The translations under genes and the position numbers were made by a program. Below the pieces are notes generated by a model. The model was not told the DNA's origin, ran no database searches, and saw only the letters and a program-made list of their open reading frames with translations. Shown here one piece after another: positions 15,200 to 42,485 of a DNA stretch of 43,600 nt. The stretch's first letter is position 1; every line of letters begins with the position of its first letter. This DNA comes from an uncultured Bacillota bacterium. Its GTDB lineage: Bacteria > Bacillota_I > Bacilli_A > RF39 > UBA660. The DNA lies in NCBI GenBank assembly GCA_947650795.1, contig CANSWR010000008.1:1-43600 (forward strand). The letters run 5' to 3'.

Positions 15200-15757
15200 T
15201 TACATTCCTTGTTTTTTATAATAATCATGTAATTCTTTAAATCTATTAAAATGTACTATTTCTCTTTCTCTTAAAAAGCTTAAAGGCGCTAGTAAATCTT
15301 GGTCTTTTGTTAAATCCATTAAGTTTTCATAAACTGCCTGTGCTTTCTTTTCTGCTGCCATATCTTCTTGTAAATCTACTATTGGGTTACCTGTAATATT
15401 TATATAAGCAGTTGTAAATGGTACGCCATTTGAGTCACTTGGAAAAACACCTTTTTTATGTTCTACATAATGAGTATCAAGTCCAGCAGATTTTAATTCT
15501 TCTATGCTCGCATCTTTAATTAATTGTCTTACCATTGTAGAAATCATTTCAACATGTCCTAATTCTTCTGTAGCAATATCAGAAAGTAATGCTCTGCCTT
15601 TTTCATCTGGCATAGAAAATCTTTGACATAAATATCTTAATGATGCAGCTAATTCACCATTAGGACCTCCTAATTGTTGATTGAGTAATTTTGCCATTTT
15701 CAAATCTTTTTTTCTTATATTTATAGGATATTCTAATAATTTTTCATATTTAAACAT
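15200..15757 (-). CDS. cotJC: Spore coat protein CotJC, manganese-catalase family
   Basis: A 185-residue member of the Mn-catalase/CotJC family, a ferritin-like four-helix protein found in the inner spore coat. The dimetal ligands are visible in 'ELAASLRYL', 'TEELGHVEM' (about 66-74), 'DMAAEKKAQAVYENL' and 'REREIVHFNRF'. The length and start ('MFKYEKLLEYP') match CotJC. Its ATG shares one base with the stop of the preceding cotJB gene (TAATG), so they are translationally coupled, and GGAGGAAAAAAC provides the ribosome site. It supports sporulation in this organism. Catalase activity is possible but not proven for CotJC. Confidence 0.93.
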   Translation of the reverse strand: MFKYEKLLEYPINIRKKDLKMAKLLNQQLGGPNGELAASLRYLCQRFSMPDEKGRALLSDIATEELGHVEMISTMVRQLIKDASIEELKSAGLDTHYVEHKKGVFPSDSNGVPFTTAYINITGNPIVDLQEDMAAEKKAQAVYENLMDLTKDQDLLAPLSFLREREIVHFNRFKELHDYYKKQGM

Positions 15758-16347
15758 TAGTTTTTTCCTCCTTCATTCATCCATGGCCATGGATTTTTAT
15801 TCCATTTATATTCACTATAGTATTCTGTTTCAGTCAAGCAAAGTGGACCATAATTTTTTTCGTATATTTCTTTAGCTTTTTTTAATTCTTTTGAAGCATT
15901 TCTAAATTCATAATAAACTTTTTCATCTTGAGGATTAACATCTAAATAAAGACCTAAATCTATTGTTTTAAAAGTTAATTCTTGAATTTTTAAAAGCAAT
16001 TCGTCTCTTTCACCACTTACAACAACTTTATAAATATAATTTTTATAAGGATCATAAATTGAAGTGAACATATTTCCTTTATTTAATCCTTCTTTTGCTG
16101 AATATAATTCGTTTTTAACTCTTATGTTGTTTACATTAATATTTCCTATGTTAACTTTTACGTCTGTATCCCATTCGTTAGATTTATAATTATTTTCATA
16201 CATGTTTTTTTCAAGTTCGTTTTTAATATTAAATTTATTTATGTCAACATCATTGTGTTCGTGATTATTAAAATCGTAATCGTTATTTTCTATTTTCTTT
16301 TCTTCACTAATGTATTTTATTTTATTATCTCTTTCATCATAATACAT
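15757..16347 (-). CDS. cotJB: CotJB with a long N-terminal extension
   Basis: The C-terminal ~90 residues (about 105-196) are CotJB: 'LLLKIQELTFKTIDLGLYLD', 'YEKNYGPL' and 'NKNPWPWMNEGG' are characteristic. CotJB itself is normally only about 90 residues. Here it follows a polar, Asp/Asn/Lys-rich N-terminal region of about 100 residues with no recognised domain, possibly disordered. GGAGGG precedes the ATG. The usual first gene cotJA is not seen between this gene and tsaE, so the operon is cotJB-cotJC only. The extension could replace a CotJA-like scaffolding role, which is inference. Confidence 0.85.
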   Translation of the reverse strand: MYYDERDNKIKYISEEKKIENNDYDFNNHEHNDVDINKFNIKNELEKNMYENNYKSNEWDTDVKVNIGNINVNNIRVKNELYSAKEGLNKGNMFTSIYDPYKNYIYKVVVSGERDELLLKIQELTFKTIDLGLYLDVNPQDEKVYYEFRNASKELKKAKEIYEKNYGPLCLTETEYYSEYKWNKNPWPWMNEGGKN

Positions 16348-20386: not shown

Positions 20387-20446
20387 TTTTATTTAATTTT
20401 AGTTCTTAATTTTTTAATTTTTTAATAAACTTTAATGGTGAATACA

Positions 20447-23020
20447 ATGTTTAATATTAAAGGTTTATCAGACGAAGAAGTAAAAAAGAGTAGAGAAATG
20501 AATGGTACAAATCAAATTACAGAGCATAAAAAAAATACATTATTTAGTTTGATATTAGAATCACTTAATGATCCAATAATAAAAATATTAATGATTGCTT
20601 TAGGTATTAAAGTGTTGTTTCTTTTTCATGATAGTGATATTTATGAAACTATTGGTATAATAGTTGCCATTATTTTAGCTAGTGTTATTAGCAGTTTATC
20701 AGAGTATGGAAGTGAAAAAGCTTTTGTTAAGCTTTCAAGTATGACTAGTAAGATATTAGTAAAAGTTTTTAGAAATTCTAAACTTGAAAATATAAATATA
20801 GATGATGTAGTTGTCGGCGATTTTGTTTTCTTAGAAAGTGGGGATAAGATTCCAGCTGATGGGGAAATTGTAAAAGGAGATATAAGTGTAGATGAGTCTA
20901 TGCTTACTGGTGAGTCTAAGGAAAAGAATAAGGGATACAAAGATACTCTTTATAGAGGAAGCATTGTTACAAGAGGTAGTGCTTTAATGGAAGTTTATAA
21001 TATTGGTAATGATACTTATTATGGAAAGATAGCAAAAGATATACAAGAAAAAACTCCAGATAGTCCTCTTAAAAATAGGCTTAGAGATTTAGCAAAGTTT
21101 ATAAGTAAAATTGGATATTTTTGTGCGTTTTTGGTTATTATTTCTTATTTATTTAATGCTATTTTTATAAGTAATAATTTTGAAGTAGATAAAATTATAA
21201 ATATGGTAAGTAGTTTTAAAACAATGGCCCCACATCTTTTATATGCTCTTACTTTAGGTGTTACAATTATAGTAGTAGCTGTTCCAGAAGGGCTTCCGAT
21301 GATGATTACTTTAGTTTTATCTTCTAATATGAAAAGATTACTTAAAAATAATGTTTTAGTTAGAAAATTAGTTGGAATAGAATCTAGTGGAAGTTTAAAT
21401 ATTTTATTTAGTGATAAGACTGGAACTATAACTAAGGGTAAGCTTGAGGTAATTGGAGTTATGGATAGTAAAGGGACAGTTTATAAAAAATTTAAAGAAA
21501 TTAACAACTTTAAATTATCTGAACTTTTCTTGCTAGGTTTACTTTATAATAATGCTTCTAATTTTAGTGGAGAAGATGTTATAGGAGGAAATGTTACTGA
21601 CCGCGCTATTTTAAGATTTATTGGTAATCAAAATAGGGATAAATATAAGATTTTAGAGCAAGAAGATTTTGATAGTAAGAAAAAATATTCAAGTGTTAAA
21701 TTAAATTATGAAAAAGATAGTGTTTTTTATAAAGGTGCTTACGAAGTAATAATAAATAAATGTAGTAGGGAACTTAGAGAAGATGGGAGTTTAAGTTTAA
21801 TTAAGGATAAACAAAATCTTATTAATATAGGAAATGATTATACTAGTAAGGGTGTTAGAGTACTTGGTGTTTCTTATAAAGTAAATGGTAGTATGACTTT
21901 TATTGGTTTTGTTTTAATTAAAGATGAAATAAGAGATGAAGCAAAAAAGGGAGTAGAAATGTTTAAAAATGCTGGTATTCAGACTGTTATGATTACTGGA
22001 GATAATGCTTTAACTGCAAAGAATATTGCCAAAGAAGTAGGTCTTATTGAGAGTGAAAATGATTTAGTTCTTACAAGCGAAGAATTAAGGTTAATGAGTG
22101 ATGAGAAAGTAAAAGATATTTTACCTAAAATAAGAGTAGTGGCTAGAAGTTTACCTGAAGATAAAAAACGTCTAGTTTATTTGAGTCAAGAGATGGGACT
22201 TGTAGTTGGAATGACTGGGGATGGCGTTAATGATGCGCCTGCTTTAAAAAGAGCGGATGTTGGATTTGCAATGGGAAGTGGAACTGAGGTAAGTAAAGAG
22301 GTAAGTGATATTATTATTCTTGATGATAATTTTTTAAGTATTGTAAAAACTATATTATTTGGAAGAACAATATTTAAGAGTATTAGAAAGTTTATTATAT
22401 TTCAATTAACAGTTAATATTACAGCAGTTAGTTTGTCTGTAATTGGACCATTATTTGGTATTATATCTCCTATAACTGTTATTCAGATGTTATGGATAAA
22501 TATGGTTATGGATACTTTGGCAGGTGTTGCATATGCCTTTGAACCTCCAAAAATTGAATATATGAGTGAAAAACCTAAAAATAGAAATGAAAAAATTATG
22601 AATAGGTATATGATGAATGAAATTTTAGTTACTGGTTGTTATATGAGTTTACTCTGTATGTTTTTCTTAAAATCAGATTTTATTAAGAGTCTTTATAGAG
22701 TAGGTAATAAAGATGCGTATGTTATGACAGCATTTTTTGGATTATTTATTTTTATGACAATTTTTAATGCTTTTAATGCAAGAACTCACAGATTAAATGT
22801 TTTTGCAAATGTTACTAAGAATAAAGCATTTTTAATTATTATTTTGTTTGTTGCTTTAGTACAAATTGGTATGATATATTTTGGTGGTAATATTTTTAGG
22901 ACTACAGGACTTACTTTTTTAGAGTTTGATGTTATGTTGATATTGGCGTTTAGTGTTATTCCATTTGATTTTATACGTAAAACTATTCTAAAAAAACGTG
23001 GTAAATGTTTAGGTGTATAA
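20447..23020 (+). CDS. P-type cation ATPase, Ca2+-ATPase (type IIB-like)
   Basis: An 857-residue P-type ATPase that exports a divalent cation, most likely Ca2+, across the plasma membrane at the cost of ATP. Motifs in order: actuator 'DESMLTGESKEK' (TGES), membrane helix M4 'AVPEGLPM', phosphorylation site 'SDKTGTIT' (with Ile rather than the more common Leu), 'KGAYE' nucleotide-binding loop, 'ITGDNALTAKNIAKE' and hinge 'GMTGDGVNDAPALKRADVGFAMG'. Four C-terminal helices follow. The start is taken at 20447, because GGTGA six bases before it is the ribosome site; an in-frame ATG 12 bases earlier has none. A bidirectional terminator ends it. Confidence 0.93.
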   Translation: MFNIKGLSDEEVKKSREMNGTNQITEHKKNTLFSLILESLNDPIIKILMIALGIKVLFLFHDSDIYETIGIIVAIILASVISSLSEYGSEKAFVKLSSMTSKILVKVFRNSKLENINIDDVVVGDFVFLESGDKIPADGEIVKGDISVDESMLTGESKEKNKGYKDTLYRGSIVTRGSALMEVYNIGNDTYYGKIAKDIQEKTPDSPLKNRLRDLAKFISKIGYFCAFLVIISYLFNAIFISNNFEVDKIINMVSSFKTMAPHLLYALTLGVTIIVVAVPEGLPMMITLVLSSNMKRLLKNNVLVRKLVGIESSGSLNILFSDKTGTITKGKLEVIGVMDSKGTVYKKFKEINNFKLSELFLLGLLYNNASNFSGEDVIGGNVTDRAILRFIGNQNRDKYKILEQEDFDSKKKYSSVKLNYEKDSVFYKGAYEVIINKCSRELREDGSLSLIKDKQNLINIGNDYTSKGVRVLGVSYKVNGSMTFIGFVLIKDEIRDEAKKGVEMFKNAGIQTVMITGDNALTAKNIAKEVGLIESENDLVLTSEELRLMSDEKVKDILPKIRVVARSLPEDKKRLVYLSQEMGLVVGMTGDGVNDAPALKRADVGFAMGSGTEVSKEVSDIIILDDNFLSIVKTILFGRTIFKSIRKFIIFQLTVNITAVSLSVIGPLFGIISPITVIQMLWINMVMDTLAGVAYAFEPPKIEYMSEKPKNRNEKIMNRYMMNEILVTGCYMSLLCMFFLKSDFIKSLYRVGNKDAYVMTAFFGLFIFMTIFNAFNARTHRLNVFANVTKNKAFLIIILFVALVQIGMIYFGGNIFRTTGLTFLEFDVMLILAFSVIPFDFIRKTILKKRGKCLGV

Positions 23021-24631: not shown

Positions 24632-25696
24632 ATGATAAAAAAATTTATGTATGTTATTTTGTTTTTTAGTGTAATAATTATTGTTAAGTTTTTTACTGCG
24701 CAGTATAGTATTTCTTATGTAATAGAGGATTTTAATATAAAAGAAGAAGCAAGAAATGGTACTATGTATTTCGAAATTACCTATGATAATAAAATTTATA
24801 ATTATATGTTTTATAATTCTAGGAAATTAACTAAAAAACGAATTAAAAGTGTTAAGGTAGAGAAAATAGGTGAAAGTTTATGTTTGACACCAGATATTAA
24901 AGGAATAGATTCTTATAGTGTATGTCATGATGGCACTAGTTTGGTAAGTGAGCATATTTTAAAGGATAAAAATTATGATAATAAAACAGAAGATTTTTAT
25001 TATAGTAAAAAGTTAAATAAAAATGAATTCGTTTTAATTTGGAAATATGATGGTTTTTATTATATGAATGAAGATGAGCAAAAAAGTATTAATATTTTTA
25101 ATAAAGATAGATATTCTAATGATTTAATGTATCAAAAAGATAAATTTTTAATTTTTCCTAAGTATAGTGATGCGTATTTATTTTCTGATTTTGTTGTTTT
25201 AGATATGACTAGTGGAGATTATAAATATATTACTACAGATTATAAAATTAATTATAATAGTAAAGTTGTTGGAGAACATAATAATAGCATTTATTTATTT
25301 GATTATACTAGTAATAAACTTTATGAAGTTAACTATAAGAAACGTAGATGTAAATTAGTAGGGGATGAAATAAAGGGATATATAAAATATGAAAATGGTC
25401 GAAAGAAGGAAGCTAGTTTAAATAATTATATTAAAGAAAATTATACTTTTTTTGAAGATGACAATAAGTATTTAGATGTTGATAAAAATTATTTTAGTTA
25501 TTGTAATAACAATAGTATAAAGTTTAGATATTTCAAAGATGATAATATTAAATTTGTAGATAGTTATAAAAATAATTTATATTTTGTAAGTGATGATAAT
25601 TTGTTAAAGTATACTAATAATAGTGTGGAACTATTAGTTCATTATTTTGAACTTAATTTTAATAGTGGTAATGTTGTCTTTGTCTATAATAAATAA
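24632..25696 (+). CDS. Membrane-anchored extracytoplasmic protein, unknown
   Basis: A 354-residue protein with an N-terminal membrane segment (about 4-22) and a large Tyr/Asn/Asp/Lys-rich ectodomain. Repeated strand-like units such as 'YKYITTDYKIN', 'IYLFDYTSNKLYEV' and 'LYFVSDDNLLKYTNN' resemble beta-propeller blades, which is inference. I do not recognise a family. GAGGAAG precedes the ATG, 29 bases after the thioredoxin-like gene, so the two may be co-transcribed by read-through. Confidence 0.65.
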   Translation: MIKKFMYVILFFSVIIIVKFFTAQYSISYVIEDFNIKEEARNGTMYFEITYDNKIYNYMFYNSRKLTKKRIKSVKVEKIGESLCLTPDIKGIDSYSVCHDGTSLVSEHILKDKNYDNKTEDFYYSKKLNKNEFVLIWKYDGFYYMNEDEQKSINIFNKDRYSNDLMYQKDKFLIFPKYSDAYLFSDFVVLDMTSGDYKYITTDYKINYNSKVVGEHNNSIYLFDYTSNKLYEVNYKKRRCKLVGDEIKGYIKYENGRKKEASLNNYIKENYTFFEDDNKYLDVDKNYFSYCNNNSIKFRYFKDDNIKFVDSYKNNLYFVSDDNLLKYTNNSVELLVHYFELNFNSGNVVFVYNK

Positions 25697-25738
25697 CCTT
25701 TTTACTTTATTTGCATATATTGTAAATAGGTGAATGAA

Positions 25739-25831
25739 ATGAATGATTTTAGAAAAGTTTTAGATACAGAATATTATACTTATTATACTATTGAAAGCGG
25801 GGATACAATTTTTATGGGGAATAATGAGTAG
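25739..25831 (+). pseudogene. 5' fragment of a LysM-repeat protein gene, interrupted
   Basis: A 30-codon ORF with a proper ribosome site (AGGTGA) encodes 'YYTYYTIESGDT' and then runs into unrelated residues and a stop. The first 23 residues are the start of a LysM domain ('YTIESGDT'). The remainder of the gene is found at 29894-30161 beyond a mobile element. Joining the two at the shared CGGGGATAC gives 'SGDTLYSISKKFNVNP' in frame, a 108-residue protein with two LysM-like repeats and no signal peptide. LysM domains bind peptidoglycan GlcNAc chains; spore or cell-wall location is likely. Confidence 0.85.
25798..25806 (+). repeat. Left junction core (attL-like) CGGGGATAC
   Basis: The nine bases CGGGGATAC occur here and at 29894-29902, the two borders of the inserted element. 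They sit within the 'SGDT' codons of the LysM gene. Confidence 0.75.
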
Positions 25832-25885
25832 AATATAAAAATATGCACAAAATTTAGGTTGTTTAAATAAAAATGACCTTTTATA

Positions 25886-25894
25886 TGTTATAAT
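25886..25894 (+). promoter_or_regulatory. Extended -10 promoter TGTTATAAT of the hydrolase
   Basis: An extended -10 box 25 bases before the ATG of the hydrolase; no convincing -35 at standard distance. Confidence 0.5.
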
Positions 25895-25918
25895 TTATAA
25901 TATACTGGAGATGAAAAT

Positions 25919-27013
25919 ATGAATGAATTTAAATTAAGAGGCACTATAACTGATTGTATAGATGTTGATCAAAATGCTGAATTAGGTTTTAACTTTCCAT
26001 TTAAAATAGTTATTCCAAAAAATTTAAATGATACTCCAGAACTTATATATGCATGTAATTTACCAAGAGACATGTCAGATAGTTGTTCATCATTTGATGA
26101 ATTAATCCAACATGCAAAAAATGATTTTGGAAGCATTGATCCTATGCTTATTCATTTATGCTTAGAAAATGGTTACCCTATGATTATTCCAGCAATACCA
26201 AGATTTAAAAATTTTCGGCCTAATTTTTTAGGAAGTGATTGTTTCAATAATGATTTTAAAAAATCAAAAAATTCTATATTTAAAGATTATTTATATATGT
26301 ATGAAAACTTGGCAGATCAACATAAAGCAATTATGGAATATGCAATAAAATGTTTAAATGCAAGTGGAATAAATGTAGATGATAAGTTAATTATTTCGGG
26401 CTATTCTGAAGGTGCAAAATTTGCTTCCCATTTTGCTCTTTTACATCCAGAGATTATTAAAGCAGTTATTGCTGGAGGAACAGGTGGGGCAATTTCAATG
26501 CCAGTTTCAAACATTGATGGATATGAATTTATATATCCAACAGGCATAGCAGATATTTCTAATTTTGATTTTGCTTCTTTTAAAAATATATCGTTTTTCT
26601 ATTATATGGGTGATATAGATAAGTCTGATTCTGCTATTCCAAATTTTGAAACATATCATTATATAGATGATAAAGGAAAAGATTGTATATTAAAAGATGA
26701 GTGTGGAAATGAAACACCTTTTATCGATGAAAATGGTAAGCAAAAATTTATATTGGATAGTGATGGCAATTATACTGCTAAATTTAATTTATTTAGTGAT
26801 CAAGAGGTAAACGCAATTAATAAAGCATTAGGAACAATTACGCAAGAAAGATTTAAAAAACAGGCATCCATTTATAATAGTTTAGGTCTAAGGGCATTGT
26901 TTAAATTATACCCTGGAAATCACAGAACTATATTTGATAATAGAAATATTATTTTTAAAGATGTAGATGAGTTTATTAATAATTATTTAAAAAAAGAAAC
27001 AAAAATATTGTAA
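25919..27013 (+). CDS. Alpha/beta hydrolase (esterase-like), element cargo
   Basis: A 364-residue alpha/beta-hydrolase. The nucleophile elbow is GYSEG in 'LIISGYSEGAKFASHFALLHPE' (about 160-180) and the likely catalytic histidine is in 'YPGNHRTIFD' (about 337-345). No signal peptide is present, so it is probably cytoplasmic. The family cannot be narrowed: esterases, PHB-depolymerase-like and peptidase-like proteins share this pattern. GGAG precedes the ATG, and a terminator follows. It is the first gene of the mobile element. An inactivating or detoxifying enzyme is one possibility; nothing in the sequence proves it. Confidence 0.78.
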   Translation: MNEFKLRGTITDCIDVDQNAELGFNFPFKIVIPKNLNDTPELIYACNLPRDMSDSCSSFDELIQHAKNDFGSIDPMLIHLCLENGYPMIIPAIPRFKNFRPNFLGSDCFNNDFKKSKNSIFKDYLYMYENLADQHKAIMEYAIKCLNASGINVDDKLIISGYSEGAKFASHFALLHPEIIKAVIAGGTGGAISMPVSNIDGYEFIYPTGIADISNFDFASFKNISFFYYMGDIDKSDSAIPNFETYHYIDDKGKDCILKDECGNETPFIDENGKQKFILDSDGNYTAKFNLFSDQEVNAINKALGTITQERFKKQASIYNSLGLRALFKLYPGNHRTIFDNRNIIFKDVDEFINNYLKKETKIL

Positions 27014-27034
27014 AAATTAAAGTCTAAAAAACTT

Positions 27035-27084
27035 AATCATCCTATAAATTTTAACAAAAACTATAAATTAGGATGATTTTTTAT
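27035..27084 (+). terminator. Intrinsic terminator after the hydrolase
   Basis: AATCATCCTA and TAGGATGATT pair, followed by TTTTTATG. Confidence 0.8.
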
Positions 27085-27127
27085 GCTTTAAATACTGATA
27101 AATACCGACTTTATCCTTTATAGCTTC

Positions 27128-27236
27128 CTACAAAGTAGGATGAATTTTGCAAGTGCAAAATCAGATTTGTGTATATACAATTCCTTATGTAATAAGGTTC
27201 TAATTGCATATGATACACATACTTCTTATCCTGTTA
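27128..27236. other. Structured noncoding region of the 4.1-kb element
   Basis: Several nested inverted repeats: TTTTGCA-AG-TGCAAAA (27145-27160), CCTTAT-GTA-ATAAGG (27183-27197) enclosed by GTGTATATACAATT and AATTGCATATGATACAC, all enclosed by TAGGAT and ATCCT. There is no ORF. It may be a structured RNA or leader, or recombinase binding sites. Confidence 0.4.
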
Positions 27237-27328
27237 TTTCATAATTTAATAAATTATCAATCTTTTTAGGATGATAGACAAAACTTTCCATACTTTATGA
27301 GTTGACTCTTCTTTTTAAAGGAGGTACC

Positions 27329-27388
27329 ATGCATCATACAAAAGGAGATGATGTTTATGAAGATTTTAATGGAGGAATATGGAGTTAA
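27329..27388 (+). CDS. Possible 19-aa leader peptide
   Basis: An ATG with an excellent ribosome site (AAAGGAGGTACC) opens a 19-codon ORF ending in 'DFNGGIWS'. It precedes a second short ORF and a strong hairpin. The strength of the ribosome site for such a tiny ORF is the main evidence; translation is not proven. Confidence 0.4.
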   Translation: MHHTKGDDVYEDFNGGIWS

Positions 27389-27392
27389 GTAA
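27357..27392 (+). CDS. Possible 11-aa leader peptide (MKILMEEYGVK)
   Basis: A second tiny ORF overlaps the previous one, with AAAGGAG about nine bases upstream of its ATG. It ends three bases into the hairpin at 27389-27431, a layout resembling attenuator leader peptides. Confidence 0.35.
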   Translation: MKILMEEYGVK

Positions 27393-27431
27393 TATTGTTA
27401 GGTGTGTTGTACACATACCAAATAATATTAC
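27389..27431 (+). promoter_or_regulatory. Hairpin in the recombinase leader
   Basis: GTAATATT pairs with AATATTAC, and inside it GGTGTGT with ACACATACC. It lies between the tiny ORFs and the recombinase operon. It has no T-run on the plus strand, so it is not a plain terminator. Confidence 0.5.
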
Positions 27432-27478
27432 TAAAAAAAAATTTAAAGCCATAGAATTTATTGGAGGTATTAAACTCT

Positions 27479-27658
27479 ATGGTTAAATACAAAGTTAATT
27501 TAAAGTTTAAAGAAAATGGGAAATCTTTAAATGAGACAATAACTGAGGTATTAAAAATAGAACTAAATAAAAAAATAAATGAGACTTGCAATATTTTAAA
27601 AAAGGAGTTACCATTCCATCATACTCATTATTCTCAAAGTGAAGGGAGTAGTAATTAG
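27479..27658 (+). CDS. Small accessory protein upstream of the serine recombinase
   Basis: A 59-residue protein, basic and mostly helical ('LNETITEVLKIELNKKIN'), ending in a polar tail with 'HHTHYSQSEGSS'. The ATG at 27479 has GGAGG 12 bases upstream. Its TAG stop shares one base with the GTG start of the recombinase, so the two are coupled. Small ORFs in this position accompany many large serine recombinases in Firmicute elements; a recombination directionality role is inference. Confidence 0.65.
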   Translation: MVKYKVNLKFKENGKSLNETITEVLKIELNKKINETCNILKKELPFHHTHYSQSEGSSN

Positions 27659-29220
27659 TGATTGGGAATAGTAGTTTTAAAGTAGGAATATATATAAGAT
27701 TATCAAGAGATGATGGAAATATTGAATCAGATAGTATTATTAGTCAAAGAAGCTTACTTAATCAATATATCAAAGAGAACAACTATAATTTAATTGATGA
27801 ATATGTTGATGATGGTTTTACTGGAACAAATTTTGAAAGACCATCATTTAAAAGAATGATTAAAGACATTGAATCTGGAAAAATCAATATGATTATTACC
27901 AAAGATATGTCTAGATTAGGAAGAGATTATATTGGTACAGGTGAACTAATTGAAAAGTATTTTCCAAATAATAATGTAAGATATATTGCTATTAATGATG
28001 GTATTGACACATTTATAGATAATACAAACAATGATATAGCACCATTTAAAGCAATAATGAATGATATGTATGCTAAAGATATTTCTAAAAAAGTTAAAAC
28101 AAGTCTTCATTCACGAATGAAAGAAGGATTATATGTATCAGGAAGATGCCCTTTTGGTTATATGAAAGATCCAAATAACAAAAATCATTTAGTTATAAAC
28201 GAAGAACAAGCAGATACTGTTAAATTGATATTTGATTTAGCATTAAAGGGTAATACTTATCATTATATAGCCCAAGAATTAACTGAAAGAAAAATAAAAA
28301 CACCAGCATCTTATTACAATTATGTTTGGAATACAAAGTGTATAAATACAAATTGTATTTCACAAGAGTATGGTGTATGGGTTGATACAACTGTTAAATC
28401 AATTCTAACTAATCAAATCTATGTTGGAGATACAGTTCAAGGAAAGACTAAAAAAATTAATTATAAACTTAAAAAGACAGTTAAGAATAATCCTAAAGAT
28501 TATATAATAGTTGAAAATACACATGATGCAATAATTGATAGAGATACTTTTAATTATATTCAAACACTTTTACCTAAAAATGTTAAAAGACCAGAGAAGA
28601 AAAGATTTTATTTATTAGATGGACTTTTATATTGTGGAGACTGCAAACATAGAATAACGATTAGATATCAAAACAAAACTGGTAGAAGTTATACAACTTG
28701 TGATTATTATAGAACTTATTCTAAATATCATGTTTGTACAAGTCATAATAATAATTATGAAACATTAGAAAGAGTTATTTTAGATAATGTAATGGAAGTG
28801 TGTAAGAAATATTTAGATAAGAATAAAATAAAAGATTCAATAGGTAATATTAATCCAGTAGATAATACTTTAAATATTAAAAAACAAATTGAATGTTTAG
28901 AATTTGCAAATCAAAAATTAACAAATAATTTGGATAAAACATATATGAATATGTTAAACAGTATAATTGATGAAGAACAGTATGTAAGAATAAGTGAGAA
29001 CATAAAAAAAGAAATAAAAAATAATAAATTAAGTATTGATAATATTAAAAATGAAAATATTGAATCTAAAAAACAAGATAAAAAACAATTAGAAAAATAT
29101 ATTGATGAATTTTTATCAATAGAAAGACCATCCAGAGAATTAATAGTTAATTTAATTGAAAAGATTTATATTTATCAAGATAAAACTATAGATATTATAT
29201 TTACATTTGTTAATACATAA
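27658..29220 (+). CDS. Large serine recombinase (integrase) of the 4.1-kb element
   Basis: A 520-residue large serine recombinase that catalyses integration and excision. The N-terminal resolvase domain (about 8-150) has the nucleophile Ser16 in 'YIRLSRDD', with Arg14, and downstream 'ITKDMSRLGRDYIGTGELIE'. A recombinase domain (about 160-270) is followed by a zinc ribbon ('LYCGDCKHRITIR' to 'CDYYRTYSKYHVC') and a C-terminal coiled coil (about 385-480). All catalytic residues appear intact. It starts at GTG, with GGGAG upstream, overlapping the small accessory gene. It is presumably responsible for the CGGGGATAC-flanked insertion into the LysM gene. Confidence 0.93.
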   Translation: MIGNSSFKVGIYIRLSRDDGNIESDSIISQRSLLNQYIKENNYNLIDEYVDDGFTGTNFERPSFKRMIKDIESGKINMIITKDMSRLGRDYIGTGELIEKYFPNNNVRYIAINDGIDTFIDNTNNDIAPFKAIMNDMYAKDISKKVKTSLHSRMKEGLYVSGRCPFGYMKDPNNKNHLVINEEQADTVKLIFDLALKGNTYHYIAQELTERKIKTPASYYNYVWNTKCINTNCISQEYGVWVDTTVKSILTNQIYVGDTVQGKTKKINYKLKKTVKNNPKDYIIVENTHDAIIDRDTFNYIQTLLPKNVKRPEKKRFYLLDGLLYCGDCKHRITIRYQNKTGRSYTTCDYYRTYSKYHVCTSHNNNYETLERVILDNVMEVCKKYLDKNKIKDSIGNINPVDNTLNIKKQIECLEFANQKLTNNLDKTYMNMLNSIIDEEQYVRISENIKKEIKNNKLSIDNIKNENIESKKQDKKQLEKYIDEFLSIERPSRELIVNLIEKIYIYQDKTIDIIFTFVNT

Positions 29221-29225
29221 AATTA

Positions 29226-29254
29226 TTGACGATGTGAATAAAAATGTATATAAT
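29226..29254 (+). promoter_or_regulatory. Consensus promoter of the toxin-antitoxin operon
   Basis: TTGACG, a 17-bp spacer and TATAAT. Transcription would start about 29261, immediately before the AAGGAG ribosome site, giving almost no leader. It is the strongest sigma-A promoter in the window. Confidence 0.8.
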
Positions 29255-29277
29255 ATAAACGTAAGGAGATGGATGAT

Positions 29278-29586
29278 ATGGAGTCTATGACTAATGTAAA
29301 TATAAGAATGAGTGTGGAGGATAAAGAAATTGCTACTAGCATACTGGAAAGTATGGGATTAAATATGTCTACACTAATTAATATGACTGTTAAACAACTA
29401 ATACAGAAAAGAAAAATACCTTTTGAAATAACTGCTCCATCGGATGATGCTTATTTACTTAAATATTTTACAAAAGAGGAATTGCAGGAAGGTTCTAAGG
29501 AACTTGAATTTATGGAAAATCATCCAGAAAATTATAAGAGTTATGATAATTTAGATGATTTATATAAGTCTTTAAATGAGGATTAA
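29278..29586 (+). CDS. RelB/DinJ-family antitoxin
   Basis: A 102-residue antitoxin: N-terminal ribbon-helix-helix ('NVNIRMSVEDKEIATSILES' and 'LNMSTLINMTVKQLIQKRKIPFEI') that binds DNA and dimerises, then an acidic flexible C-terminus that would neutralise the toxin. The ATG at 29278 is preferred over one nine bases earlier because the ribosome site AAGGAG is too close to the latter. It is transcribed with the toxin, two bases separate the genes, and is likely autoregulated by the complex. Confidence 0.9.
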   Translation: MESMTNVNIRMSVEDKEIATSILESMGLNMSTLINMTVKQLIQKRKIPFEITAPSDDAYLLKYFTKEELQEGSKELEFMENHPENYKSYDNLDDLYKSLNED

Positions 29587-29588
29587 TA

Positions 29589-29876
29589 GTGAAATATAAA
29601 GTAAAGTACGAAAACTTATTTAAAAAGCAATATAAAAAGGTAATTAAGCAAGGAAAAGATATAAAAAAGTTACATGAAATAATTGAATGTCTTGCAAAAG
29701 GTGAAGAATTACATGAAAAATATAGAAATCACAAACTAGTTGATAATAAAAAATTCAAAAATTGTTATGATTGTCATATTGAGCCTAATTGGTTGCTCAT
29801 ATATAAAATTGACAACGATGAGTTAATTTTATTATTAGTTGCAACAGGTTCACATAGCGAGATTCTAAATAAATAG
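29589..29876 (+). CDS. YafQ/RelE-family mRNA interferase toxin
   Basis: A 95-residue RelE-fold toxin, which cleaves ribosome-bound mRNA. The family pattern 'YRNHKL', 'NCYDCHIEPNWLLIYKI' and C-terminal 'LLVATGSHSEIL' is clear; the histidines in 'CHIEPNW' and 'GSHSEIL' correspond to YafQ active-site positions. It uses GTG as start, two bases after the antitoxin stop. In the element the pair probably promotes maintenance. Confidence 0.9.
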   Translation: MKYKVKYENLFKKQYKKVIKQGKDIKKLHEIIECLAKGEELHEKYRNHKLVDNKKFKNCYDCHIEPNWLLIYKIDNDELILLLVATGSHSEILNK

Positions 29877-29893
29877 CACATAAAAAACGTAAA

Positions 29894-29902
29894 CGGGGAT
29901 AC
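29894..29902 (+). repeat. Right junction core (attR-like) CGGGGATAC
   Basis: Second copy of the nine bases at the left junction. The reading frame of the LysM gene resumes immediately after it. Confidence 0.75.
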
Positions 29903-30161
29903 TCTTTATAGTATTAGTAAGAAATTTAATGTAAATCCTAAATTAGTAGCAGAGTTAAATGGACTTGAAGTAGATGAGTATATTTATCCTAAGCAAACTT
30001 TAATTATTCCTAAAAAAGGTATTCAATATTATATTACTAAAGAAAATGATACTTTAAAGACAGTTTCTAATTTGTTTGGGACTAATGAAGGAGAAGTTGC
30101 TAGTCAAAATAAAACAATATATTTATTGCCAGAACAGATGATATTTTATAGGGAAAACTAA
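29894..30161 (+). pseudogene. 3' fragment of the interrupted LysM gene
   Basis: The frame runs from the junction to the TAA at 30159-30161 without a start codon. It encodes the rest of the first LysM repeat ('GDTLYSISKKFNVNP', 'LNGLEVDEYIYPKQTLIIP') and a second, more divergent repeat ('YYITKENDTLKTVSNLFGTN'). It is separated from its 5' end at 25739 by the inserted element. Excision would restore the gene. Confidence 0.85.
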
Positions 30162-35012: not shown

Positions 35013-35048
35013 TTTTAAACATTATCGTTCAAAATCATCTTTGTTTTT
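35003..35048. terminator. Bidirectional terminator between AdSS-like and mob genes
   Basis: AAAGATGATTTT (35005-35016) and AAAATCATCTTT (35031-35042) pair perfectly, followed by GTTTTTT; the minus-strand reading also ends in Ts. The AdSS-like stop lies in the left arm and the relaxase stop in the loop. Confidence 0.88.
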
Positions 35049-36359
35049 TGAATTGTTTTGAATAATATCAATATCACTATCATCTAGTATATCTTCACTA
35101 TATAAATCATTTATGAAATCATCATATTTATCATTAAAGAAGAATTTGTTTTGTAAAAATTCTATAAACTTTTTCCATAATTCTTTAAAGTAATCAACTA
35201 TTTTTTGTAATTCTGATACCTTATCTTCTAACTCATCAATAGTTTCGTTAGCATCATTTAAGTCATATTCTAATTCTTCAATTCTATCATCACGAGTTTT
35301 TATTTTCTTTTTCAAGTTTCTAACTTCATTTGAATGTTCTCTTAAATCATCTTCGTATTTTTTTAAGATTATATTTATATCATTTGCATTTCGTAAATTA
35401 GAAGTTGTGTCGCTAGTTTGCTCTATGTATTTTTTGATTTTGTTAATTTCTTCACTAGAAATAGAGTAGTTATTTTTATTTATAATAGTAGGTTTTAAAT
35501 TATCAATAATATCATTAATCTCACTAGATTTATTTCGTAATTCGTCAGTTTTACTATTTAATTCTTTGAGTTGCTTTTTATATTTTTCTTGTTCTCGTTT
35601 AAACTTTTTATATTCATTCATATTAGCTACATTAATATCAACATTCCTACCTTCTTCTTTTTCCTTAAGAGTGTAGTTTAAATGATAAATTCTATTAAAC
35701 GAATTAATACAATATTCTCTCATTTTATCTTGGATATTTACTAAACTTGTCTTATTAAACACATCAGATTTACCAACTTGTTTAGACATACCATTTTTCA
35801 TTCCATCTTTAAAAGGAACTCCAACAATATGTAAATGAGGACTAGATTCGTCAAAATGAATAGTGGCATTTGCTATTTTAAAGTTAGGTACAACTTCTTC
35901 TAAATCTAATATTTGTTCTTTAAAAACTTCAATCATTTTTTTCTTAAACTTATCATCTTTATCAGTCCAAAAGTCCATATCTCCAAGTTCAATAATAATC
36001 TCACAAGCAAGATCTCTTTTGTTATCATTTGAAATATGATTAAAATAATTTTCTATCTTTCTATCATTTCTAGTTTGCTTTTCGTTGTATTTAATTTTTG
36101 CATCTTCAAATAAATCTAAATATAAACTTTTAGTATCTTCTACAATAGATGAAGTACCTTTAATCGTACAAATTAATTCTTGTTCTTCATCATATTTTCG
36201 TAAGTTATGTTTATCAACTTTTGATAATTGTTGATGGTTTTGGATAGCATTATTAGATAGAGAAGTAGTTCCAGTTTCAGTATTTTTTACACTTCTTCTT
36301 GCTTTTTTTGATTTATTTTTATCATTACTTAAATGTAATGAATAAGATAATTCTTCCAT
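35022..36359 (-). CDS. mobV: MobV/Pre-type relaxase (mobilisation protein)
   Basis: A 445-residue relaxase of the MobV family, which nicks oriT and leads transfer using a helper conjugation system. The N-terminal motif 'HNLRKY' (51-56) and the metal-binding motif 'HFDESSPHLHIVG' (168-180; His168, Glu171, His175, His177) are clear. A long C-terminal coiled coil follows (about 245-410). AAAGGGGG precedes the ATG. Its promoter at 36398-36426 is next to two adjoining stem-loops that may be oriT, the same arrangement as in pMV158-type plasmids. No partitioning or replication gene is adjacent. Confidence 0.92.
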   Translation of the reverse strand: MEELSYSLHLSNDKNKSKKARRSVKNTETGTTSLSNNAIQNHQQLSKVDKHNLRKYDEEQELICTIKGTSSIVEDTKSLYLDLFEDAKIKYNEKQTRNDRKIENYFNHISNDNKRDLACEIIIELGDMDFWTDKDDKFKKKMIEVFKEQILDLEEVVPNFKIANATIHFDESSPHLHIVGVPFKDGMKNGMSKQVGKSDVFNKTSLVNIQDKMREYCINSFNRIYHLNYTLKEKEEGRNVDINVANMNEYKKFKREQEKYKKQLKELNSKTDELRNKSSEINDIIDNLKPTIINKNNYSISSEEINKIKKYIEQTSDTTSNLRNANDINIILKKYEDDLREHSNEVRNLKKKIKTRDDRIEELEYDLNDANETIDELEDKVSELQKIVDYFKELWKKFIEFLQNKFFFNDKYDDFINDLYSEDILDDSDIDIIQNNSKNKDDFER

Positions 36360-36397
36360 AAATTCATAACCCCCTTTGTTAGAATAGAGTCCTACTA

Positions 36398-36426
36398 TTT
36401 ATAATAGGATAATTTTGCTCTGTCAA
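36398..36426 (-). promoter_or_regulatory. Promoter of the mob gene
   Basis: On the minus strand TTGACA (36426-36421), spacer of 17, TATAAA (36403-36398). The start point would be near 36391. Confidence 0.7.
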
Positions 36427-36435
36427 AATCTCTAA

Positions 36436-36495
36436 CCCCCTATATATTTTGACACAAGTATCAAAATATGGGGGCTAAGGTTTAGGCAACCTTAG
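36436..36495. other. Candidate oriT: two adjoining stem-loops
   Basis: CCCC...ATATTTTGA pairs with TCAAAATAT...GGGG (36436-36474) and is directly followed by CTAAGGTT-TAGGC-AACCTTAG (36475-36495). They lie just upstream of the mob promoter, where MobV relaxases act. I see no match to a known nic sequence. Confidence 0.5.
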
Positions 36496-36720
36496 AATCT
36501 ATGAAAATTATTCAAGTAATTGCAAACTATTGTAAGCAATTATTTCATAATTTTATCAACAAACTTTTCCCACTTTCATTGTCTTTCGACAACAAAACGT
36601 GTTCGTTTGTTTTTACTTTTTTTAGAAAAAAGTTAACAAAAAATCTTTTGTTGATTGGTAACTTCAAAACGAAAAATATTATTTTTGTTTTAAAGTTTTT
36701 CCATTATTACTCTTACTTTT
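36496..36720. other. AT-rich noncoding stretch
   Basis: A plus-strand open frame at 36501-36725 has no ribosome site and an unusual Phe/Lys-rich composition; I regard it as noncoding. No further feature is visible. Confidence 0.4.
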
Positions 36721-36745
36721 GTTAGTCAAGAATCAAGACAAGCAA

Positions 36746-36766
<21 letters not shown>
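36721..36766. repeat. 12-bp perfect inverted repeat downstream of the recombinase
   Basis: GTTAGTCAAGAA (36721-36732) and TTCTTGACTAAC (36755-36766), with CAAC-TATC-GTTG in between. It overlaps the stop of the small ORF; T-rich sequence follows on the plus strand only. Confidence 0.6.
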
Positions 36767-38636
<1,870 letters not shown>

Positions 38637-38668
38637 TTAGATTTAATCAAGTTTAATTACAAAATAAA

Positions 38669-38761
38669 TACCAATATCACTATTGGTACAAATATAAAGC
38701 AAGAAAAAGTCCATATAGATAAATTAGATATAACTTTATCATTAGGACTTTAAAATAGTAT
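38669..38761. other. Two hairpins upstream of the defective recombinase
   Basis: TACCAATA-TCAC-TATTGGTA (38669-38688) and AAAGTCC...GGACTTT (38706-38761). The first belongs to the hairpin family also seen at the element ends. Confidence 0.5.
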
Positions 38762-38791
38762 ATTTCAAATTAAAATAATTAATTGTTGAAT

Positions 38792-38836
38792 AGAGAAACT
38801 ACTGATTATATAATCAAAACTAGTTTCTCTTTATTA
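38792..38836. terminator. Terminator-like hairpin after the 251-aa gene
   Basis: AGAGAAACTA and TAGTTTCTCT pair perfectly, with GATTATATAATC inside; TTTATT follows on the plus strand. Confidence 0.6.
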
Positions 38837-39589
38837 ATTAACAAAATCATAACTATTTACTTTTATTTTACTTCTACAATATGGTTTTCTTTCTTCTAAA
38901 GGTACTTTACTACATATTGACTTTAACTCTTCTTTTAATCTTAATTCCTTATCTGAAACCATAAATGGACTTTGTTTCCAATCTATATACTTTTCTAATT
39001 GTTCATCATATACTTTTTTTGGTATTTGATAAATTTTGTAATCATGTAAAATATAATCGTAGAAAGTTTCATAAATATTAAATTTGGAAGTGGTAATTGT
39101 TCTATAAAGTTGGCTTTCAATTGCATCATAATTACATGCTTGCACTAATATATCTTTTAATACTCTATCTCTTCCAAGTGAGTTCCTATTAGTATCTTGA
39201 ATTCCAGTGACCTGTGAAAAATCTACTATTTCACTTTTCCAATCCCAAATACCATATTTACTTTTATAAACATTAATTAAATATCTAACTAAATAAAGTC
39301 TCATTTTTTGTTCTTTTAAATGAACATCATAAGTTTTAGTAGTTAAAGATTTTTCCCAACTAATTAAGCTATTTAAATATTCATCTTTAGAGGAATATCG
39401 TACATCTGCTCCAGGTGTAAAATAATGAGTAAAAAATGGTATAACAAATCCCCCAGCATGAGCAACGCTAGCATATCTCTCTACATCAAATAAGGATCCA
39501 TCTGGGGTAATATATGTACCTCTAGGCCAAATTATATTTGGAGTAGTTTTTCCGTATTGCTCTACATATTTATCATAAAAATAAGTCAT
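38834..39589 (-). CDS. Unknown 251-aa protein of the second element
   Basis: I do not recognise this protein. It is soluble-looking, rich in Tyr, Asp, Lys and aromatic residues, with no signal peptide, membrane segment or obvious catalytic motif. The N-terminal half has 'NIIWPRGTYITPDGSLFDVE' and 'YASVAHAGGFVIPFFTHYF'; the C-terminal half is helical and ends with two cysteines ('SICSKVPLEERKPYCRSK'). GGAGGAAA precedes the ATG, and a near-consensus promoter lies 28 bases upstream. It stands alone as a cargo gene between the two recombinases, where defence and resistance genes are often found; function not inferred. Confidence 0.75.
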   Translation of the reverse strand: MTYFYDKYVEQYGKTTPNIIWPRGTYITPDGSLFDVERYASVAHAGGFVIPFFTHYFTPGADVRYSSKDEYLNSLISWEKSLTTKTYDVHLKEQKMRLYLVRYLINVYKSKYGIWDWKSEIVDFSQVTGIQDTNRNSLGRDRVLKDILVQACNYDAIESQLYRTITTSKFNIYETFYDYILHDYKIYQIPKKVYDEQLEKYIDWKQSPFMVSDKELRLKEELKSICSKVPLEERKPYCRSKIKVNSYDFVN

Positions 39590-39616
39590 AATTTATTTCC
39601 TCCTTGTGTACCAAGT

Positions 39617-39645
39617 ATTATAGCACAAATGAATTTTACTAACAA
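39617..39645 (-). promoter_or_regulatory. Promoter of the 251-aa cargo gene
   Basis: On the minus strand TTGTTA, a 17-bp spacer and TATAAT, with an extended -10 (TGCTATAAT). Confidence 0.75.
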
Positions 39646-39779
39646 TAAAAATTTTAAACCTATTAGTATTGAGTAAAAATATATGAAATTATATACTAAT
39701 ATAAACGCTAATAAAATTAGGTATAATTAAAAATTGAAGCAACATTTTTATCAATAAAACACCAAATATTTTATCCTTA

Positions 39780-39807
39780 TTTACTATAAGCAATCAAGTG
39801 ATATAAT
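39780..39807 (+). promoter_or_regulatory. Promoter of a short structured RNA
   Basis: TTTACT, 16-bp spacer, TATAAT, just before the transcript at 39814. Confidence 0.55.
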
Positions 39808-39813
39808 ATAGTA

Positions 39814-39871
39814 GAATATGAAATAATTGTATATAGTAGTACTACTTCTAAATGTAAGTAGTGCTTTTTTC
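39814..39871 (+). ncRNA. Candidate short regulatory RNA
   Basis: About 58 nt between a promoter and an intrinsic terminator: AGTACTACTT and AAGTAGTGCT pair (39838-39865), followed by TTTTTC. In addition GAATATGAAA (39814-39823) is inverted at TTTCATATTC (39868-39877), so the whole RNA can fold back on itself. There is no ORF. It could be an antisense-like or copy-control RNA of the element. Confidence 0.5.
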
Positions 39872-39877
39872 ATATTC

Positions 39878-40311
39878 AAATATCTACATCTTCATTAATA
39901 TTTTTCTTCGAAAAGTATGGCCATATTTACGACCATCAATTCATTATAATTTCTAAAATTTATAATCAAAAATCTTAAAATATTTCTTTAAAAAAGTGTT
40001 TACGATTGTCATACACCTTTTTAGAAGTCTTTATTTATAAGGATTTTAAAAATTTATATTGTATACGATTGTATAACAATTATAGAAAGTGTATACACTT
40101 GTATTTTTTCTAATTTCCTATAAAATAAGGGAAAACTAGCTACTGGCTAGTTCTTTGTAAACAGGTTTATCCTGCTTTTATTTTGTTTTGATTATTTTAG
40201 AAAAAGTGATATTTCTATAGCCATAACTTCGGCCGTAACTACGTCTATGATTTTACATACTTTTATAATTTTGATAACTATTATTTAGTTGTCTTTTTTT
40301 TATTTGTGGGG
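39878..40311. promoter_or_regulatory. Gene-free region with three related palindromes
   Basis: GTGTTTACGATTGTCATACAC (39996-40016), a second palindrome around TATACGATTGTATAAC (40062-40077) and GTGTATACAC (40089-40098) are similar near-palindromes within 100 bp. Further hairpins follow: AACTAGC-TACTG-GCTAGTT (40134-40152) and CAGG-TTTAT-CCTG with CTTTTATTTT (40162-40185, terminator-like). The cluster could bind a regulator or recombinase. No gene is seen. Confidence 0.5.
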
Positions 40312-40340
40312 CTGTAATAAAATGATAAGTGCAGTATAAT
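40312..40340 (+). promoter_or_regulatory. Promoter of the recombinase operon
   Basis: CTGTAA, 17-bp spacer, TATAAT at 40335-40340, about 78 bases upstream of the small ORF. Confidence 0.4.
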
Positions 40341-40417
40341 TTCTTTAAGATATTTAAAAGAAAGTTGGTGCATAACTATGATATGAATTGTTTAAGAATT
40401 TAAAGGGGGAATAATTT

Positions 40418-40603
40418 ATGCAAGAAAGAAGTGATAAAAAGTTTGAACATCTAAAAAAATATGTAGCAGAAATTGCTTTATTAGAATTTATTAAAGATAA
40501 TAACTTAATCGATATTAACGAATACAAAAAAATCAAAAATAAAATTGATAATGAATATGCAAAATATAATAAGCTAAACAATTCAAAATATAGTTTTGCA
40601 TAA
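40418..40603 (+). CDS. Small accessory ORF before the intact recombinase
   Basis: A 61-residue helical, charged protein ('FEHLKKYVAEIALLEFIKDN', 'YKKIKNKIDNEYAKYNKL') with a strong ribosome site (AAAGGGGG). It lies 52 bases upstream of the serine recombinase, the same position as the 59-residue ORF in the first element, though the sequences differ. A role in regulating or directing recombination is inference. Confidence 0.65.
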   Translation: MQERSDKKFEHLKKYVAEIALLEFIKDNNLIDINEYKKIKNKIDNEYAKYNKLNNSKYSFA

Positions 40604-40655
40604 CTAAAATACTATTTGAAATATGCTATTATTCAACAATTATAGAAAGGAAGAA

Positions 40656-42485
40656 ATGAATAATAAAAATGTTGAAGTAATAGCACCAACTTCTAAAACA
40701 ATGTGCTTAAAAGAAACTAAAGAAAAGAAAATGATTAAGGCCTGTGCTTATTGTCGTGTTAGTACAGATAATGAAGATCAGAAAACAAGTTATGATTCAC
40801 AACGAATACATTACAAAAATATGATTGAAGAAAATCCTGACTATGAATTTGTAGGAATATATGCTGATGAGGGTATAACTGGTACACAAACTAAAAAGAG
40901 AGAACAATTTAATCAAATGATGAATGATGCCTTGAATGGCAAGATTGATTTAATATTAGCAAAATCTATATCAAGGTTTGCTCGGAATACTGTTGATACT
41001 TTAAATTGTGTAAGATTATTAAGAGAACATAATGTAGATGTCTTTTTTGAGAAAGAAAACATCCATACTCTAGGATTATCAAATGAATTATTTTTAACTT
41101 TATATAGTGCTTTTGCTCAAGCTGAAAGTGAATCAATATCAGAAAATGTAAAAGCAGGTGTAAGAATGAAAATGAAACGTGGAGAATTGGTTGGTAAGTA
41201 TGCTCCCTTTGGATATTTATACGACAAAGAAAAAAATATAATAATACCAGATGAAAGCAAGAAAGATATTGTTACTTATATTTTTAAAGAATATTCTAAA
41301 GGTGTAGGTTTTAGAACGATTGCTCTCAATCTTAATAGTTTAGGAATACTTAGTCCTTCTAATTTAAAATGGTGTCATGCTTCGGTTAGAAGAATAATTG
41401 TAAATGAAAAATATGTTGGAGATTTAAAGACTGGAAAATATTATACTGAAAATGTTTTAACTCATAAAAAGAAAGTCAATTACGGAGAAAAAGAACAGTT
41501 TTTTACAACTAATCATCATGAACCCATTATCTCTCGTGAATTATGGGATAAGTGTCAAGAAATACTAAATATAAGAAGTAAAATCATTAAGCCAGATGGG
41601 AATAGAGATAAGTTTAGTAGAAAGTATCCATTCAGTAGTAAAATCTTTTGTGGGATATGTGGAGAGAGATTTATCAGACGTTCTTATAAAATCAGAAGTA
41701 ATGGAAAAGAAGTTGCTTATTGGATATGTAGAAGTCATCGAAATAAAATTGAGTGTTCTAATCTTATTCACTACAAACAAGAAGAATTAGAAGATATATT
41801 TGTACTTGCTTATAACAAACTATTTCAAGATAGTGATAGATACATCAATTCATTTATGCAAAAAGTAAATGAAGTCATCAATGATAATCAAAATTATACT
41901 AATCAAAAAAATATACAAGAAGAAATCACTAAACTTGAAAATAAGTTATCTAATCTCATTGATTTACAACTAGATGGCTCTATTTCAAAAGAAATACTAA
42001 ATCAGAAAAATCAAGAGATTACTAATCAAATTAAAGAATATGAGCAACAACTAAAAAATACTGAAAAGATAGAATTCACAAGAAAACAAAAACTAGAACA
42101 AATTGATAAAATATCTAATATTCTAAAACAGTATAAAGGACTTACTAAATTTAATGAAGAAGTTTTTAATAGTTTAGTTGATAAAATCATTATTGGCGAA
42201 AAATTAGAAAATGGAACAGAAGATTTTTACAAGATTAAGTTTATTCTTAAAACTGGAGAATTAGTGAGTGAAAATCTACCGAATGGAAAACTGGATATTG
42301 GTACTAACTTTGGTAAATATGGTTTTACAATCACTAAACAAGAACTAGAAGAGAAGGAAGATAGTGTGTCTGCCTATGTATTACAACGGCACCCTTATGT
42401 AGATTCCAGCAATTTTCTTTTCTTCATTCATAAATCAAAATCCTTTCTTATTCTTCATCAAAAAAGAGGCGACAAAGACACTTAA
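40656..42485 (+). CDS. Large serine recombinase (integrase) of the second element
   Basis: A 609-residue large serine recombinase with an intact active site: 'ACAYCRVSTDNEDQ' carries Arg34 and the nucleophile Ser36, followed by 'LAKSISRFARNTVD', a recombinase domain (about 180-290), a zinc ribbon ('IFCGICGERFIRR' to 'CRSHRNKIEC') and a coiled coil (about 410-485). The start at 40656 is chosen because AAAGGAAG lies six bases upstream; an ATG 33 bases earlier has no ribosome site. It is the most likely integrase of the 10.5-kb element. The last ~40 residues are atypically hydrophobic. Confidence 0.92.
   Translation: MNNKNVEVIAPTSKTMCLKETKEKKMIKACAYCRVSTDNEDQKTSYDSQRIHYKNMIEENPDYEFVGIYADEGITGTQTKKREQFNQMMNDALNGKIDLILAKSISRFARNTVDTLNCVRLLREHNVDVFFEKENIHTLGLSNELFLTLYSAFAQAESESISENVKAGVRMKMKRGELVGKYAPFGYLYDKEKNIIIPDESKKDIVTYIFKEYSKGVGFRTIALNLNSLGILSPSNLKWCHASVRRIIVNEKYVGDLKTGKYYTENVLTHKKKVNYGEKEQFFTTNHHEPIISRELWDKCQEILNIRSKIIKPDGNRDKFSRKYPFSSKIFCGICGERFIRRSYKIRSNGKEVAYWICRSHRNKIECSNLIHYKQEELEDIFVLAYNKLFQDSDRYINSFMQKVNEVINDNQNYTNQKNIQEEITKLENKLSNLIDLQLDGSISKEILNQKNQEITNQIKEYEQQLKNTEKIEFTRKQKLEQIDKISNILKQYKGLTKFNEEVFNSLVDKIIIGEKLENGTEDFYKIKFILKTGELVSENLPNGKLDIGTNFGKYGFTITKQELEEKEDSVSAYVLQRHPYVDSSNFLFFIHKSKSFLILHQKRGDKDT

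Follow-up and report, generated by a model that had tools for sequence, protein, structure and literature searches.

A large serine recombinase element that splits a LysM gene in an uncultured member of the Bacilli, from an integrase clade that targets LysM-coding repeats

Here we describe a small LysM gene of an uncultured member of the Bacilli that is split by a 4096-bp element carrying its own large serine recombinase (LSR), and whose open reading frame is restored when the two flanks are joined. We refer to the whole 43,600-nucleotide stretch of DNA that was analysed as the window. With a probability of about two in three, we read the insertion as a gene-intervening element that entered at LysM codons and is excised in the sporulating mother cell to restore the LysM gene. 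Judging by the junctions of its relatives, the clade of integrases to which the recombinase belongs targets LysM-coding repeats in many genes, beyond the gene found here. The split gene and the ends of the element lie as follows.

25739..25831, + strand: 5′ fragment of the LysM gene; host-encoded as far as about 25806, followed by seven element-encoded residues and a stop
25773..25828, + strand: attL; crossover GG at 25799-25800, 9-bp repeat at 25798-25806 (attL/attP consensus from 35 loci)
25801..29896, + strand: intervening element, 4096 bp, missing from the orthologous gene in G003-G006
29869..29924, + strand: attR; GG at 29895-29896, 9-bp repeat at 29894-29902, left arm CATAAAAAACGTAAAC
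29895..30161, + strand: 3′ fragment of the LysM gene; 88 codons, without its own start codon at the junction

An earlier note on this DNA had proposed that the LysM gene is split by an element of about 4.1 kb and that joining its halves restores a protein of 108 aa. Both proposals are borne out. The element is bounded by CGGGGATAC, which occurs exactly twice in the window, at the two positions listed above, where shuffled sequences predict 0 copies. The left-hand frame encodes 30 aa, MNDFRKVLDTEYYTYYTIESGDTIFMGNNE*, an arrangement that is identical in a congener (G007), and the right-hand frame restarts at 29895 as GDTLYSISKK and ends at 30161. Joining the flanks across the core yields an open frame of 108 aa, in which Pfam recognises a LysM domain (residues 16-59, 66.8 bits) running across the junction, GAAAGCGGGGATACTCTTTATAG, which is the attB. 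A Pfam search of the 5′ fragment alone gave no match, and that of the 3′ fragment was limited to LysM positions 6-43; neither half has a whole domain. The element is slightly AT-richer than the window (24.7% against 26.2% GC), and all its named genes point in the direction of the host LysM gene.

The uninterrupted gene, whose absence from related genomes would have spoken against this picture, was found in four of the nine genomes of the genus (G003, G004, G005 and G006) at 76-78% identity. G007 carries an integrase 88% identical to that of the window, inserted at the same codon, with the left end of its element on contig C4 and the right end on C15; by eye its cargo differs, an ATPase-like gene replacing the RelB/YafQ pair. 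A homologue of the LysM gene is present in 164 of the 243 family genomes searched, and a search with a longer homologue found it in 206 of 386; in both searches it is nearly always open.

The recognition of attL, attR and a recoverable attB of a serine recombinase likewise stands, with empty sites present in relatives. The reconstructed attP is a near-palindrome about GG, with a mean of 16.3 of 24 symmetric pairs compared with 7.6 in shuffled sequence, and the attB sites are without a palindrome (5.8 pairs). Symmetric attP arms around a central non-palindromic dinucleotide common with attB, here GG, are what is looked for in an LSR. The attB consensus spells the codons Y-T-V...G-D-T-L...I-A. 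The 9-bp core proposed earlier is present as a repeat at both junctions but does not in itself mark the crossover: the attP arms are symmetric about GG, and the repeat extends beyond it because the right arm of attP begins with GATAC, like the LysM codons.

LSR relatives with 78-89% identity occur in about 50 of 386 family genomes, and we assembled 80 named loci (77-89% identity) from uncultured Bacilli and related metagenome assemblies. The right end is readable in 73 of the 80, and in every one of the 73 the host sequence picks up at GD[x][LIFVW] within a LysM repeat, the abutting LysM motif being GD[TSN]. Where both ends are available, all 32 junction peptides are the LysM motif, for example YTVQSGDSLWSIA. 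The entered genes vary, and include Amidase_3, GH25, M23 and PG_binding genes with LysM domains as well as homologues of the small LysM gene. Judged by these junctions across relatives, the attB of the integrase is DNA that encodes a protein-domain motif. Among 42 integrases placed in a tree, the 17 LysM-targeting LSRs form one clade (support 100/100), and LSRs outside it enter other sites, including a Ca2+-ATPase gene and the catalytic domain of an amidase. Elements with both ends measure about 2.3 to 9.7 kb and have varied cargo. Two wider proposals were rejected: a LysM target common to LSRs of 55-58% identity, since these adjoin other genes and a 48% group sits in the Ca2+-ATPase gene; and a phage origin of the element, the closest viral contig reaching only 54%. 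A literature search returned no report linking serine integrases, attB and LysM.

Between the attachment sites, the element holds the following genes and RNA structures.

25919..27013, + strand: cargo, 364-aa protein with an alpha/beta-hydrolase-like GYSEG nucleophile elbow (motif seen in sequence)
27388..27432, + strand: conserved stem-loop upstream of the 59-aa ORF and LSR; z = -5.3
27447..27484, + strand: second stem-loop (GCCATAGA...TCTATGGTT); loop carrying the GGAGG ribosome site, stem carrying the ATG of the small ORF
27479..27658, + strand: 59-aa ORF immediately upstream of the LSR, candidate recombination directionality factor
27658..29220, + strand: LSR, 520 aa; Resolvase, Recombinase, Zn_ribbon_recom
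29269..29586, + strand: RelB/DinJ-type antitoxin, cargo (Pfam/NCBIfam-type match)
29589..29876, + strand: YafQ/RelE-type toxin, cargo (Pfam/NCBIfam-type match)

The recombinase exceeds the cut-offs of PF00239, PF07508 and PF13408, giving the resolvase, recombinase and zinc ribbon domains and the length of roughly 500 aa expected of an LSR; its nearest solved structure is the catalytic domain of TnpX (2mhc). A 59-aa ORF lies just before the LSR in 58 loci, behind two stem-loops. It has no match in Pfam or NCBIfam, and its position and fitting size make it a candidate directionality factor. The pairing of the first stem-loop is preserved across 13 aligned relatives, with three pairs changed on both sides. 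An Rfam search of the two structures gave no match; conserved as they are in relatives, they resemble translational or attenuation control. At window positions 27359-27484, a putative short leader ORF beginning near 27359 and the two stem-loops lie ahead of the 59-aa ORF and integrase. A search for SigK or SigE promoters before the small ORF and LSR found none beyond chance, and none of SigK type in 58 loci. The 364-aa cargo protein has no Pfam or PADLOC match and nothing better than E = 0.06 in NCBIfam.

The split gene itself is preceded by a promoter-like sequence.

25696..25722, + strand: SigK-type promoter of the LysM gene, AC-N16-CATATATTG; one mismatch to AC-N16-CATAnnnTA

The sequence AC-N16-CATAnnnTA is the SigK consensus of Bacillus sigma factors. 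Of 73 distinct uninterrupted orthologues, 66 have a strict SigK-type promoter at the corresponding position, as compared with 0 of 108 ORFs used as controls. Genomes of the genus encode a close homologue of sigK, scoring 298.1 bits where the cut-off is 298.65, together with sigE/sigG-like factors. From this promoter evidence, the LysM target of the window looks like a sporulation gene. Across the clade, strict SigK promoters precede 6 of the 27 interrupted genes with a 5′ end, some of these ends being themselves cut by another element, compared with 9 of 733 controls (p = 4.5e-6). The proposal that all targets are sporulation genes was rejected, since insertions also lie in GH25, M23 and PG_binding LysM genes that have no SigK promoter. 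Genes resembling those of the spore coat proteins CotJC and CotJB were seen by eye at window positions 15200-16347. Genome-based predictions place spore formers in orders of related uncultured Bacilli such as RF39 (PMC10868615).

Elements of comparable behaviour are known from sporulating bacteria. The closest likeness is to gin, the gerE-intervening element of Bacillus cereus ATCC10987, which is 28.6 kb long, has three recombinases and one target gene, and whose excision has been proved (PMC5595907). Like the window element, gin is a non-prophage element with a serine recombinase and a 9-bp repeat that splits a small sporulation gene, the frame being restored on excision. By contrast, the window element is 4.1 kb long, has one recombinase, belongs to a clade with many LysM targets and is predicted from its sequence to be excised. 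The intervening elements skin (sigK), SP-beta (spsM), vfbin (spoVFB) and yin (yabG) similarly bear a recombinase and lie within a mother-cell sporulation gene (PMC5025042, PMC4191935, PMC10747680). In two of these cases the directionality factor is small, 53 and 72 aa, compared with 59 aa for the candidate here. They differ in being prophage-like with one gene each, and the papers searched named no LysM target. The window element shares with this class a recombinase of its own inside the element, a frame restored on joining and a target with, on promoter evidence, a SigK-type promoter. A second comparison is with the multi-targeting LSRs of the TndX/TnpX-like kind, in which one LSR clade enters many target gene clusters (PMC10083194). 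The domain architecture is the same. The worked example in that study has an AT-rich relaxed target, and some others have more complex motifs, whereas the attB described here, about 40 bp, is the coding sequence of a domain motif. DUF4368 is found in 63% of the multi-targeting clade, hence is not universal (PMC10083194); the window LSR has no Pfam match to it.

Two species of one genus (L256 and L267) with a common insertion bear on whether the split halves remain in use. Their loci, element and cargo included, align at 88% over 6.5 kb, with matching dS values of 0.52 and 0.57 in the halves, 0.53 and 0.55 in the flanks and 0.64 in the integrase; a Fic-like cargo gene is lower, at 0.31. The dN/dS ratio is 0.075 in the 3′ half (95% CI 0.026-0.165) and 0.074 in the 5′ half. 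The sequence offers no in-frame start codon for the 3′ half where it meets the element, and purifying selection on a start-less half implies that it is translated after rejoining. This one species pair thus suggests that the LysM gene gets rejoined at some stage, and by analogy the rejoining is most likely a skin/gin-type excision in the mother cell. In this genus the gene is in one open frame in 28 of the 38 genomes searched. The pair formed by the window and G007 was rejected for the selection test because its LSR (dS 0.47) is less diverged than the host genes (0.74-1.41), which also means that the insertion in the window may be young. The earlier suggestion of a sigK-type intervening element has gained in part: the analogy with skin is strengthened by the conserved SigK-type promoter, the sigK homologue in the genus and the purifying selection on both halves.

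We propose that the LSR inserts at a fixed spot in LysM-coding DNA, the motif Y(T/I)V..GD(T/S)L(W/Y).IA divided between G and D, with the crossover probably at the GG of the glycine codon, as the anatomy of many relatives indicates. The split gene would be under a SigK-type, mother-cell promoter and dispensable in vegetative cells, so that its interruption would cost the host little. During sporulation the recombinase, probably with the 59-aa protein as directionality factor, would excise the element in the mother cell, and the forespore chromosome would retain it, as for skin and gin. Several observations weigh against this reading: the attP pattern turned up no excised circle in viral contigs or in genome contigs of at least 3 kb, a SigK-type promoter is absent before the small ORF and LSR in 58 loci, many relatives occupy LysM genes without such a promoter, the insertion in the window may be young, and the selection argument comes from one species pair, in which the Fic-like cargo has a lower dS. 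A bolder extension, to which we give somewhat less than even odds, is that DNA of the LysM GDTL motif is the attB of the clade and that the host re-joins many cell-wall genes by timed mother-cell excision, making them a sporulation-gated rearrangeable gene family and allowing the clade to persist.

The strongest rival is a plain insertion, with LysM repeats as an abundant landing site, the gene inactivated, other LysM proteins compensating and the restored frame an automatic consequence. Many target genes lack a SigK promoter, multi-LysM genes are numerous in these genomes, and insertions vary among genomes, implying turnover, all of which such an insertion would accommodate. However, it sits poorly with the strong purifying selection on the split halves of L256 and L267, with the enrichment of SigK genes among the targets, and with the state of the right-hand frames, just 1 of about 74 of which looks decayed (L275). 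We consider it unlikely.

LSRs with directionality factors undergo stress-triggered excision in many mobile elements. A small fraction of cells might always lose or re-insert the element, which would make the LysM gene phase-variable independently of sporulation; some targets are not SigK genes, and yin is excised at every sampled time point (PMC10747680). The target here is nevertheless a SigK-type gene conserved family-wide, and no free circle was found in the collections searched, the attP pattern having matched nothing in viral contigs or in genome contigs of at least 3 kb. This explanation seems distinctly improbable. Finally, an assembly or binning artefact joining unrelated sequence, conceivable in a draft of 87 contigs, can for practical purposes be dismissed, since the same junctions and element ends recur in more than 70 independent assemblies and both fragments match the uninterrupted gene of congeners.

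Known sporulation-intervening elements occupy one gene each; here one clade, spanning many genera of uncultured gut Bacilli, tracks a protein-domain motif between genes. Targeting a domain motif is a general way to reach a safe, abundant and conserved landing site and, if true, would enable elements to colonise many cell-wall genes within one genome. Many split cell-wall and spore genes are predicted to have gone unrecognised, being labelled truncated by annotation pipelines. The natural attB/attP pairs are also a resource on integrase specificity. If excision is timed, programmed gene rearrangement would be extended to an uncultured lineage of the gut in which sporulation is known from genomes only.

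Other recombinase insertions were observed alongside these. Another LSR type, distant from the first (36-39% identity), interrupts the Amidase_3+LysM gene at the catalytic GG[D]GAE in three of four congeners with readable copies (G000:C1 20125-61020, with L056 and L104; L057; L055). By eye, its attP arms are inverted repeats about GG, and strict SigK promoters lie upstream. The element in G000 is about 41 kb long; the 11-kb amidase-site element of L057 (G007:C4) appears by eye to carry a type I restriction-modification set and a reverse transcriptase seemingly fused to a trypsin-like domain, cargo that is likely phage defence. LysM-site amidase genes in L200, L203, L209, L231, L253, L257 and L262 start abruptly at GG[DE]GAE, and thus appear interrupted twice; L216 and L218 start at the HGG motif, which may be a third site. 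Related LSRs (L191, L192, L193, L194) lie in the Ca2+-ATPase gene at the EGLPMMITLVLSSN motif and in a ZIP-type transporter at the PEGIS motif, and an intact Ca2+-ATPase of the LSR-targeted kind is present at window positions 20435-23020. A second mobile region is suggested at 35022-42485 of the window, where a gene for a MobV-like relaxase was seen by eye (35022-36359) along with two further large serine recombinases (36852-38615 and 40623-42485).
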